Assembly: GCF_900113175.1 (NCBI RefSeq)
Contig: NZ_FOOK01000010.1
Span: forward strand, 1-64,000
Origin: Planifilum fulgidum
GTDB lineage: Bacteria; Bacillota; Bacilli; Thermoactinomycetales; DSM-44946
Reading direction: 5' to 3'
Length of the DNA: 64,000 nt
The translations under genes and the position numbers were made by a program. Every line of letters starts with the position of its first letter. Within the stretch, counting starts at the first letter, position 1. Shown here in pieces: positions 39,726 through 43,129 of this stretch. The notes below the pieces were generated by a model, which was not told the origin of the DNA, did not search any database, and saw nothing but the letters and a program-made list of their open reading frames with translations.

Positions 39726-40657
39726 TTACCGCAGTCTGTCTCAATCCGGCCGTCGACAAAACCTACCGGGTGTTCTCCCTTCAGCCTGGACGCATCCACC
39801 GGGTGGAAAGGGTGGAGGCCTGTCCCGGTGGCAAGGGAATCAACGTGGCCAAGGTGCTGAAACGGCTCGGCCTCGACATCCGGGTGACGGGCTTCATCGG
39901 GGGAGGGGCGGGTGACGCCCTCCTCCGGGGGCTTGACCGGTGGGACATTCCCCACCGCATGGTGCGCATTCCCGGCGAAACCCGCACCTGTCTCAACATT
40001 TTGGAGGAGGTCCGCCGGACGCAAACGGAATTTTTGGAGCCGGGGCCCGCGGTGCCGCCTAAGAAGTGGGAGGCGTTGAAGGAGACGGTGGCGGAGATGG
40101 CGGAAAAAAGCCGGGTGGTCGTCCTTTCGGGCAGCCTTCCCCCCGGATTGGCGGCGGACGCCTACTATGAATTGATTTCCCTTGTTCAATCCCGGCGTGC
40201 CAAAGCCATCGTCGATACCGGGGGCGCTCCCCTGGCCCGGGCTCTGGAAGCCCGTCCCTTCACGGTGAAACCCAACGGGGCGGAGATGGCCTCCCTGTTT
40301 CAAAGGGAAGAGATGAGCGATTCGGAGCGGATCGGAGTGCTCCGGGAATGGAACCGAGGGGGCATCCCCCTCGCCTGTGTCACGCTGGGAGAACGAGGGG
40401 CCATCGCTTCGATGGAGGGACGCGTTTACCGGGTGATTCCCCCAAAGATCGAGGCGGTCAACCCCGTCGGATCCGGAGATGCCTTCGCCGCGGGGTTGGC
40501 GGCCGGTCTCGACCGGGGGGAAGGGATCGAGTCGGCCCTGGCTCTGGCCGCCGCGTCGGCCGCGTCCAACGCCCTGCATCTCCAGGCGGGACAGGTGAAC
40601 GCGGAGCAGGTGGCATCACTCAAGCGGAAGGTGCATGTGGCGATTCTGTCCCCTTGA
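39722..40657 (+). CDS. PfkB-family hexose-phosphate kinase (tagatose-6-P or fructose-1-P kinase)
   Basis: 311 residues. It shows the LacC/FruK pattern: N-terminal TAVCLNPAVDKTYRV, EACPGGKGINVAKVLKRLG, then FTVKPNGAEM and the catalytic Asp-253 in NPVGSGDAFAAG. The family covers 1-phosphofructokinase and tagatose-6-phosphate kinase. With the SIS isomerase and class II aldolase upstream it completes a tagatose-type route to triose phosphates. Its start overlaps the aldolase stop (GTGA). The stop codon lies in the loop of the terminator. Confidence 0.87.
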   Translation: MITAVCLNPAVDKTYRVFSLQPGRIHRVERVEACPGGKGINVAKVLKRLGLDIRVTGFIGGGAGDALLRGLDRWDIPHRMVRIPGETRTCLNILEEVRRTQTEFLEPGPAVPPKKWEALKETVAEMAEKSRVVVLSGSLPPGLAADAYYELISLVQSRRAKAIVDTGGAPLARALEARPFTVKPNGAEMASLFQREEMSDSERIGVLREWNRGGIPLACVTLGERGAIASMEGRVYRVIPPKIEAVNPVGSGDAFAAGLAAGLDRGEGIESALALAAASAASNALHLQAGQVNAEQVASLKRKVHVAILSP

Positions 40658-40673
40658 GGGGCTTTTTCTTTTT
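40650..40673 (+). terminator. Short terminator of the amino-sugar operon
   Basis: CCCC-TTGA-GGGG followed by CTTTTTCTTTTT. The stem is only four or five pairs, but the T-tract is strong. Confidence 0.5.
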
Positions 40674-40726: not shown

Positions 40727-40755
40727 TTGCGTGAATACTATATTTGTGATACAAT
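40727..40755 (+). promoter_or_regulatory. Promoter of the DUF1538-PII operon
   Basis: TTGCGT, 17-bp spacer, TACAAT, followed by a 115-base leader before the first start codon. The leader is C/T-rich and shows no clear riboswitch. Confidence 0.6.
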
Positions 40756-40876
40756 GCAATAAGTGTTTTTTTGGGTAAAATCCCCCCTCAGACCTACCCC
40801 TTTTCCCCTTGAGCAGGTTGTTTTTGTTCCCCTTTCTCAGGCGCTGCGGTGGAATATAACAGGAAAGGAGAACACC

Positions 40877-41569
40877 ATGGAACAGGTCAAGGAAAAGATT
40901 TTGGAGGTGCTCTCTGCGGTCCTGCCCATCACCCTGGTTGTGATTTTGCTGCAGTTCACCATCATCTGGCTCCCCATGGAGGTGTTCATCCAGTTTCTGA
41001 TCGGCGCAGTGATGGTAACCACCGGTCTCATCCTTTTCCTGATCGGCGTCGAGGTGGGGCTCCTGCCGGTGGGGGAAATGATCGGTTCGACCCTGCCGAA
41101 GACCAAGAAGCTGTGGATGTTGGTGCTCTTCGGCTTCATCTTCGGCTTTGTGGTCACCGTCGCCGAGCCGGATGTCCGGGTGCTGGCCCTTCAGGTGGAT
41201 CAGGTGTCGAATGGAGCGGTCCCGAAGAACATCCTGATCTATTCCGTCGCCCTCGGCGTGGGGCTGTTCGTGGCGCTGGCGATGCTGCGGATCATCTTCA
41301 ATATTTCCATCACGCTCCTTCTGTTCATCAGTTATGCCCTGGTCTTTCTGCTCGCCCTGTTTACACCGGGTGAGTTCGCCCCGGTTTCCTTCGATTCCGG
41401 CGGAGTGACCACCGGACCGATCACCGTCCCCTTCATCGTCTCCCTCGGCGTGGGCGTCGCTTCCGTCATGCGGGGGAAAAGCTCTTCCGGTGACGGATTC
41501 GGCCTGGTCGCCCTCGCTTCCATCGGGCCGATTCTGGCGGTGATGCTGATGGGGGTGCTGTACGGATGA
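40877..41569 (+). CDS. DUF1538 membrane protein, first of a pair
   Basis: 230 residues with about seven hydrophobic helices. The motif FDSGGVTTGPITVPFI (near residues 173-188) and AEPDVRVLALQVDQVS mark the DUF1538 family, a group of putative membrane transport proteins with no established function. AAAGGAG precedes the ATG at 40877; the frame further upstream lies in the leader. The next DUF1538 gene overlaps its stop by four bases and a tandem PII-like gene follows, so the three probably form one functional unit. Confidence 0.8.
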   Translation: MEQVKEKILEVLSAVLPITLVVILLQFTIIWLPMEVFIQFLIGAVMVTTGLILFLIGVEVGLLPVGEMIGSTLPKTKKLWMLVLFGFIFGFVVTVAEPDVRVLALQVDQVSNGAVPKNILIYSVALGVGLFVALAMLRIIFNISITLLLFISYALVFLLALFTPGEFAPVSFDSGGVTTGPITVPFIVSLGVGVASVMRGKSSSGDGFGLVALASIGPILAVMLMGVLYG

Positions 41570-42315
41570 ATATCCGCGTGTGGGAAGGATTCGGTGAAGT
41601 CCTCTGGGAAGTGGCGATGGCCCTCTTTCCGATGCTGCTGTTCTTTTTGTTTTTCCATTTCTTCTTTCTCAAGCTGCCCGGGAAAAAACTGAAGGATATT
41701 TTTGTCGGGATGGTCTTGACCTTCCTGGGACTGGCCCTGTTTCTGCAGGGGGTCCACATCGGTTTTATGCCCGCCGGGGAAGCGATGGGCGAAATTCTCG
41801 TGTCGAAATCGGTCCGCTGGATCGTGATTCCCATCGGTTTTGTCCTTGGATTTTTGGCCATTTTCGCCGAACCGGCCGTGCGGGTTTTGAACCACGAAGT
41901 GGAGAAGGTTTCGGGGGGCTATATCCCGGCCAAGGTGCTGCTGTACACCCTGTCGATCGGGGTGGCGATTTCCGTGGCGCTCGCCATGGTGCGCATCCTG
42001 TGGGACATTTCCCTGTGGTATCTGATTGTTCCGGGATATGCGATCGCCTTTATCATCGCTTTTCGTTCCAAAAAAGACTTTGTTTCCATCGCCTTTGACG
42101 CCGGCGGGGCGGCCACCGGTCCGATGACCGTCACCTTCATCCTGTCCATCGCCATCGGGTTCGCCTCGGGGATGGAAGGACGGGATCCGCTGATGGACGG
42201 TTTCGGGATGATCGCTCTGGTGGCTCTCACACCGGTTCTCACCGTGCTCACCCTGGGGCTCCTGTACGGCAGAAAGGAGAAAGCGAAAGATGAGCAAACA
42301 GCTCAGTCCGCATAA
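41566..42315 (+). CDS. DUF1538 membrane protein, second of a pair
   Basis: 249 residues, paralogous to the preceding gene. It repeats the motifs AEPAVRVLNHEVEKVS and FDAGGAATGPMTVTFI between hydrophobic helices, and ends in a charged tail (GRKEKAKDEQ). The two proteins probably assemble into a heteromeric channel or transporter, as two halves of a pseudo-symmetric unit. The overlap with the upstream gene (ATGA) and with the PII gene downstream (26 bp) indicates tight translational coupling. Confidence 0.8.
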   Translation: MNIRVWEGFGEVLWEVAMALFPMLLFFLFFHFFFLKLPGKKLKDIFVGMVLTFLGLALFLQGVHIGFMPAGEAMGEILVSKSVRWIVIPIGFVLGFLAIFAEPAVRVLNHEVEKVSGGYIPAKVLLYTLSIGVAISVALAMVRILWDISLWYLIVPGYAIAFIIAFRSKKDFVSIAFDAGGAATGPMTVTFILSIAIGFASGMEGRDPLMDGFGMIALVALTPVLTVLTLGLLYGRKEKAKDEQTAQSA

Positions 42316-43024
42316 ATTGATCGTCACCATTTTGAAAAAGGGAATGGCCCGCGCCGCGGTTCAGGAGGCCAAGAAGGCCGGCGCGAGAGGGGCTACGGTG
42401 ATATACGGACGGGGGACCGGGATTCACGAGCGAACCTTTTTGGGTATTCACTGGAATCCGGAGAAGGAAGTGGTTCTCACCCTGGTTCCCGCCGAGCAGG
42501 TGGAGACCATATTGAACGCCCTGGTGAAGGCCGGCAAACTGAATAAGCCGGGAACCGGGATCGGTTTTGTCCTGGATACGAAGAAAATCGGGGGGATCAC
42601 AAGCCCGGCCGGTTCCGTCCCCTCCGACCGCGAGACCCGGGAGGTGAAGGAAGTGGAAAACACGCCGATCCAGTACGATTTGATCGTCACCATCGTGAAC
42701 AAAGGCTACGAGGATGTCGTGGTGGATGCCAGCAAGAAGGCGGGAGCCGAGGGAGGCACGATCATTTCCGGCAGGGGGACCGGCATCCATGAACACGCCA
42801 AACTGTTCAACATCCCGATCGAACCGGAAAAGAACATCGTGCTCACTCTGATCGACCGGAAAAAAACCGAGGCCGTCCTGGAAAAGATCATGGAAGAGGC
42901 GGAACTCAACAAACCCGGACGGGGAATCGCCTTTGTGATGGAAGTGGAACGGGCCGTGGGCATCAACCACGCCTTGAACCGGATGGTCAACGAGCAGATC
43001 AAAAAGACCCAAAGCAACTCGTGA
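42290..43024 (+). CDS. Tandem PII-like signalling protein
   Basis: 244 residues made of two PII-type ferredoxin-like domains (about 8-110 and 127-235). The first carries HKLIVTILKKGMARAAVQEA and YGRGTGIHERTFLGIH; the second YDLIVTIVNKGYEDVVVDAS and SGRGTGIHEHAKLFNIPI. PII proteins bind ATP, ADP or 2-oxoglutarate and gate transporters such as AmtB. Neither domain shows the classic T-loop Tyr of GlnB. By analogy this one should bind and regulate the two DUF1538 membrane proteins encoded just upstream. The fusion of two domains in one chain is unusual. Confidence 0.82.
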   Translation: MSKQLSPHKLIVTILKKGMARAAVQEAKKAGARGATVIYGRGTGIHERTFLGIHWNPEKEVVLTLVPAEQVETILNALVKAGKLNKPGTGIGFVLDTKKIGGITSPAGSVPSDRETREVKEVENTPIQYDLIVTIVNKGYEDVVVDASKKAGAEGGTIISGRGTGIHEHAKLFNIPIEPEKNIVLTLIDRKKTEAVLEKIMEEAELNKPGRGIAFVMEVERAVGINHALNRMVNEQIKKTQSNS

Positions 43025-43104
43025 AAATCTCCCCCCGCGCTTTTGGCCGGCCATGGCCGAGGGATTGCCGCGGGGGTTTCTCGGATATGCTCCTTGACGG
43101 TTCA

Positions 43105-43129
43105 CCCTCCTTCCAAGGAGGGCTTTTTT
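43105..43129 (+). terminator. Terminator of the DUF1538-PII operon
   Basis: CCCTCCTT pairs with AAGGAGGG around two bases, followed by CTTTTTT. Confidence 0.85.

Follow-up and report, generated by a model that had tools for sequence, protein, structure and literature searches.

Within the window, a 64,000-nucleotide stretch of Planifilum fulgidum DNA, we find a three-gene operon that probably encodes a monovalent cation/H+ antiporter under the control of its own, divergent PII protein. Under this proposal, two homologous seven-helix DUF1538 subunits, A and B, would assemble in antiparallel orientation into one pseudo-symmetric transporter that would exchange monovalent cations for protons, and the dedicated PII would dock on the cytosolic face of this transporter and set its activity according to a small ligand. 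The gene set, the linkage and co-occurrence of its members, the opposite bias of A and B, and the divergence of the PII ligand site were all computed here.

Organization of the operon

Three overlapping genes occupy positions 40877-43024 of the forward strand, encoding DUF1538 subunit A (40877..41569; ATG to TGA, 230 aa; PF07556, E 2.6e-78), DUF1538 subunit B (41566..42315; 249 aa; PF07556, E 4.7e-77), and a tandem PII protein (42290..43024; 244 aa; PF00543 matched twice, E 3.3e-16). The A/B junction is an ATGA overlap and the B and PII genes share 26 nt. Gene layout and Pfam assignments confirm the first-pass annotation, which had described two DUF1538 genes overlapping each other and a gene for a two-domain PII. 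A ribosome-binding site evident in the sequence (ggaaaggag, 40864..40876, forward strand) precedes subunit A and, together with the starts of orthologs, places the start at ATG 40877 rather than at that of the longer GTG 40763 ORF. Downstream on the same strand, a terminator-like hairpin with a T run closes the operon (43105..43129; hairpin at 43105-43122, then CTTTTTT), and a further terminator-like hairpin, a consensus match only, ends the upstream PfkB-type gene (40648..40662, forward strand). Terminator matches in the scan were slightly more numerous than chance (5 versus 3.8 expected) and the scan returned no sigma-70 promoter match for the transcription unit, so that the case for the single promoter-terminator unit initially proposed rests mainly on the gene overlaps. 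The flanks, judged by eye, hold a sugar isomerase/aldolase/PfkB cluster and a threonine-dehydratase-like gene with no evident link to the operon. No second DUF1538 was found in the window genome (G000; 3.38 Mb, 99.99% complete).

Motifs and predicted fold of the DUF1538 subunits

Both subunits match PF07556 over their full length, at 262.6 bits for A and 258.5 bits for B against a curated cut-off of 22.6. Subunit A carries an AEP motif at a helix break (41162..41170, placed by alignment and by the AlphaFold2 model of the fused homolog L062) and the motif FDSGGVTTGPITV at a second helix break (41390..41428); subunit B carries the corresponding AEP (41866..41874) and FDAGGAATGPMTV (42094..42132), the latter three being placed by sequence, alignment, and the same model, and all four lying on the forward strand. 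The FDxGGxxTGPxTV motifs that had been called mirrored are indeed both present, although they run in the same sequence direction and the term was loosely chosen. L062 is a natural DUF1538 fusion of 490 aa, and its AlphaFold2 model (24 sequences; pLDDT 88, pTM 0.87) has seven helices per half, two of which are broken, at AEP and at FDxGGxxTGP. No solved relative of DUF1538 was detected by sequence, and a Foldseek fold search returned nothing convincing (best E 0.09, TM < 0.2), with the qualification that the query was one 490-residue chain and a match to a single half could be missed. The modeled fold may be absent among solved structures. A resemblance to NCX_Mj was considered and rejected, as the best VIA-align score (Z 5.3) falls within the noise for helical models.

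Linkage of PII and DUF1538 across genomes

The first-pass annotation would have been refuted by a lack of conserved linkage between PII and DUF1538, but such linkage was found in four counts. PII lay beside DUF1538 in 29/29 loci of a first phylum survey and in 58/60 further loci of the phylum survey, and among 80 named loci from Bacillota, Balneolaceae, methanogens, Desulfovibrio, and other taxa it adjoined DUF1538, directly downstream, in 74. Independent searches of 299 genomes recovered DUF1538 in 101 and this PII subtype in 102, with both in 100, DUF1538 only in one, the PII subtype only in two, and neither in 196 (Fisher p 1.9e-76, a value that ignores phylogeny and is descriptive only). 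Although none of the linkage statistics is corrected for phylogeny, the linkage is beyond chance, and adjacency and co-occurrence speak strongly for the membrane system with a dedicated PII that the first-pass annotation had envisaged. PII is also adjacent in 8/8 DUF1538 loci of Desulfobacterota and linked in 2/2 on alphaproteobacterial plasmids (Chelativorans, Methylocystis).

The six exceptions among the 80 loci comprise three at a contig edge (L046, L067, L097) and three that truly lack PII; in the further survey loci PII was missing in L125 and L161 (contig end), and in the L125 genome (G218) it lies on a different contig. The true PII-less pairs, from Sutcliffiella (L053, L056) and Metabacillus (L069), are natural controls for regulation. 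Since a PII of this subtype is absent throughout the genomes searched for L053 and L069, DUF1538 can exist without it. The distribution of DUF1538 is patchy, reaching 9/41 near relatives of the window genome, and no third conserved neighbor is common to the set of loci; cation transporters of the CPA2, MgtE, and CaCA types were seen by eye as scattered neighbors. The adjacency of DUF1538 and PII is visible in public annotation, but we found no description of it in the open-access literature.

The PII subtype was also observed apart from DUF1538. In L216:4389-5216 and L218:4301-5147 it sits beside an unannotated, apparently membrane-embedded protein of 158-197 aa with no Pfam match, and L217:4540-4860 is a lone PII of the subtype, with a PF00543 and a weak PF10126 match, that adjoins a TatC-like gene.

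Opposite charge bias of the two subunits

Charge bias was scored by counting K+R on the two faces set by the helices of the L062 model. The A subunits have a mean bias of +5.7 (positive in 84/85) and the B subunits one of -6.2 (negative in 85/85), and the same opposition holds within fusions, with means of +9.2 for N halves (positive in 73/73) and -6.3 for C halves (negative in 73/73). When internal loops alone are counted the A/B contrast persists, in 83/85 and 78/85. In the window, K+R number 8 versus 1 on the two faces of subunit A and 5 versus 13 on those of subunit B. Because the biases are opposite, A and B should sit antiparallel; the positive-inside rule predicts a cytosolic N-terminus for A and an inverted B, whose charged C-terminal tail is predicted to lie in the cytosol.

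A and B form separate clades in a FastTree analysis (support 0.999) with 0/313 sequences misplaced, and a single-gene clade (support 0.989) branches off at the junction of the two, roughly equidistant from both. The mean bias of nine single-gene homologs is +0.8. This pattern is as expected if a dual-topology ancestor was duplicated to give an antiparallel pair that was later fused, and two changes of fusion state are inferred over the history of the family. The single-gene loci (L117, L128, L138, L153, L156, L163-L166), each with one DUF1538, one PII, and near-zero bias, are on these sequence grounds candidate dual-topology homodimers.

Copy number of PII domains and DUF1538 subunits

Among intact loci, a single DUF1538 accompanies one PII domain in 9. 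Two DUF1538 genes occur with one single-domain PII in 31, with two PII genes in 13, with a tandem PII in 34, and without PII in 3, and fused DUF1538 occurs with two PII genes in 8, with a tandem PII in 59, and without PII in 1. The idea of one PII domain per subunit is thus no general rule. It agrees with a single PII for single DUF1538 in 9/9 and a lone single-domain PII for fused DUF1538 in 0/68, but fails for the 31 pair loci with a single-domain PII and for three-domain PIIs. The latter were seen in two Desulfobacterota loci (L206:2824-3933, L207:2888-4033) beside a long fused DUF1538 of about 710 aa, and are possibly covalent PII trimers. In L118 and L126, two DUF1538-DUF1538-PII cassettes stand in tandem.

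A divergent ligand site in the PII protein

The tandem PII matches PF00543 at 59.9 bits (cut-off 25) in two domains, and its AlphaFold2 model (pLDDT 82) comprises two ferredoxin-like folds whose structural relatives are GlnZ/GlnK (Z about 9, rmsd 1.9-3.1). Side by side, the two domains also align to domains of RND porters at a Z of about 10, a similarity that we attribute to the shared ferredoxin-like arrangement rather than to kinship. As delimited by PF00543 and alignment on the forward strand, domain 1 (42305..42613) is divergent and domain 2 (42662..42979) conserved, with a GRGTGIHE...IEPEK T-loop region; tandem and paired forms likewise retain this motif in domain 2 and have a degenerate domain 1, and lone PIIs resemble the second domain of tandem forms. 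Neither T-loop contains a Tyr, as had been noted at the outset, and the protein thus departs from canonical GlnB/GlnK, in which Tyr-51 serves uridylylation.

Referred to Thermus PII (1ufl), the phosphate-holding residues K90, R101, and R103 are I, G, and N in domain 2 of the window protein, and they are replaced in all groups, I accounting for 72-90% and G for 72-100%. The position aligned with K58, a 2-oxoglutarate contact, is K in 72-100%, the alignment there being uncertain by one residue, and R162, H167, E168, E180, and H227 (P0003 numbering) are newly conserved. Because the phosphate-holding residues are replaced, a standard ATP/2-oxoglutarate site is unlikely in the PIIs of DUF1538 loci, and the earlier label of a nucleotide-gated system finds no support, though nucleotides may be bound in some other mode. 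Sequence conservation of the cleft-side motif suggests a ligand site nonetheless.

No other PF00543 protein, and hence no canonical GlnB/GlnK, was found in the window genome, which has one AmtB (contig C17:47134-48330, L192) and the tandem PII as its sole PII. The best PDB sequence match to domain 2 is 9p1x, a 105-aa protein that we take to be a NifI1-like PII.

Proposed transport function and its control

The first-pass annotation had called the substrate of the transporter or channel unknown, which needs correction, since UmpAB, a DUF1538 pair of Halomonas zhaodongensis and the only one tested, acts as a Na+(Li+,K+)/H+ antiporter (Meng 2017, PMC5484666). UmpAB forms a hetero-dimer by co-immunoprecipitation and is active from pH 6.5 to 9.5 with an optimum at 9.0 (PMC5484666). 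Antiport is seen in E. coli from a subclone with the two DUF1538 genes alone (PMC5484666), and PII is therefore dispensable for basal activity. The UmpAB paper mentions neither a PII nor opposite subunit orientation (PMC5484666), and no paper on DUF1538 dual topology was found in the open-access literature. A machine-learning study counts DUF1538 among the Pfam families that carry information on growth pH (PMC13255231). Many of the linked matches come from salt- or alkali-tolerant genera, with gut Lachnospiraceae and Enterococcus also represented.

By analogy, the window subfamily would carry the same ions as UmpAB. Against the UmpA and UmpB models (NF041627/NF041628) the window pair scores 129/124 and 117/113 bits, below the equivalog cut-offs of 490/500, and so is not filed as UmpAB orthologs; these low scores count against the antiporter proposal, leaving antiport in the window subfamily not established. 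L202 and L203 lie far nearer UmpAB, scoring 332-355 bits against the UmpA model, and likewise have an adjacent PII, which bridges the window subfamily to it. The same low scores lend some weight to the strongest of the rivals, in which the pair would be a PII-controlled transporter of ammonium, bicarbonate, an organic ion, or another substrate, and UmpAB antiport a side activity or a subfamily-specific one. Classic PII partners do carry ammonium or bicarbonate, and no DUF1538 relative of solved structure anchors the substrate, but the sole tested pair is a cation/H+ antiporter with a pH optimum of 9, the salt- and alkali-tolerant genera are many despite the Lachnospiraceae and Enterococcus, and the window genome has its AmtB elsewhere, so that we hold another substrate to be a distinctly weaker prospect.

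As to control, PII-family proteins regulate transporters in GlnK-AmtB and SbtB-SbtA, and the PII-transporter complexes described so far match trimer to trimer (PMC10710835, PMC8352866). On these models, the PII of the antiporter operon would bind the transporter, probably with the T-loops, which also mediate the contacts of GlnK with AmtB and of SbtB with SbtA, and binding may inhibit rather than activate it. Against this stand the trimer-to-trimer precedents, where the DUF1538 transporter looks pseudo-twofold, a basal UmpAB activity that needs no PII, and the same PII subtype away from DUF1538 in some genomes. The last of these, in which the subtype is alone or beside small membrane proteins, would also suit a co-encoded signal protein that senses an ion, pH, or a ligand and acts on transcription, AmtB, or metabolism, the antiporter being merely its operon-mate; with an AmtB and without canonical GlnB/GlnK, the window genome could employ its PII on AmtB. 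Such a role is improbable, because the PII and DUF1538 genes occur together and lie adjacent almost without exception in several phyla and no third neighbor is widely conserved. Less probable still is a PII that is a permanent structural subunit of a DUF1538 channel or antiporter and not ligand-switched: the number of PII domains partly follows DUF1538 copy number and fusion state, the first domain of tandem forms is degenerate, and two genomes pair a three-domain PII with fused DUF1538, but UmpAB works in E. coli without PII, the cleft-side motif suggests a ligand site, and in some genomes the pair persists in the absence of PII, those of Sutcliffiella and Metabacillus arguing for a regulator and not a structural part.

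Significance

The linkage suggests that a switch acting on the ion balance of the cell is widespread, though apparently not yet described: a dedicated PII stands beside a predicted pseudo-twofold antiporter in roughly one third of the phylum as sampled, and in archaea as well. New here are the opposite A/B charge bias, the variable PII copy number, and the replaced phosphate-binding residues. Many genes labeled merely 'DUF1538' or 'P-II family nitrogen regulator' thereby acquire a functional hypothesis and, if it is true, PII signaling would govern ion and pH balance in addition to nitrogen and carbon. The single gene, pair, and fusion form a natural series in which to follow how inverted membrane proteins evolve. 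A bolder combined picture, which we advance tentatively and doubt will hold in every part, would join a DUF1538 fold unrecognized among solved structures, passage from a dual-orientation single gene through an obligate antiparallel pair to a fusion, the first twofold PII-controlled transporter, a PII ligand other than ATP/2-oxoglutarate, and a tie between ion/pH balance and PII signaling in bacteria and archaea.

Comparison with known systems

EmrE and Fluc exemplify dual-topology and paired small transporters. The DUF1538 family resembles them in its near-zero-bias single gene, oppositely biased gene pair, and fusion, whereas their subunits are unrelated and smaller and lack a PII partner. 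In NifI1/NifI2, two PII paralogs are likewise encoded side by side, which recalls the doubled PII of many DUF1538 loci, but their partner is nitrogenase rather than a membrane protein. UmpAB is likewise an adjacent, overlapping pair of homologous seven-helix DUF1538 subunits, although of another subfamily (129/113 bits versus cut-offs of 490/500). GlnK-AmtB shares with the window operon a PII-family protein encoded next to a membrane transporter; in contrast, AmtB is an unrelated trimer, and the single-domain GlnK retains both Tyr-51 and the phosphate-binding residues that the window protein lacks. SbtB-SbtA similarly sets a divergent PII-like protein next to an ion-coupled secondary transporter with inverted repeats, but SbtA is a trimer of 5+5 helices and SbtB a single domain that binds AMP/cAMP.
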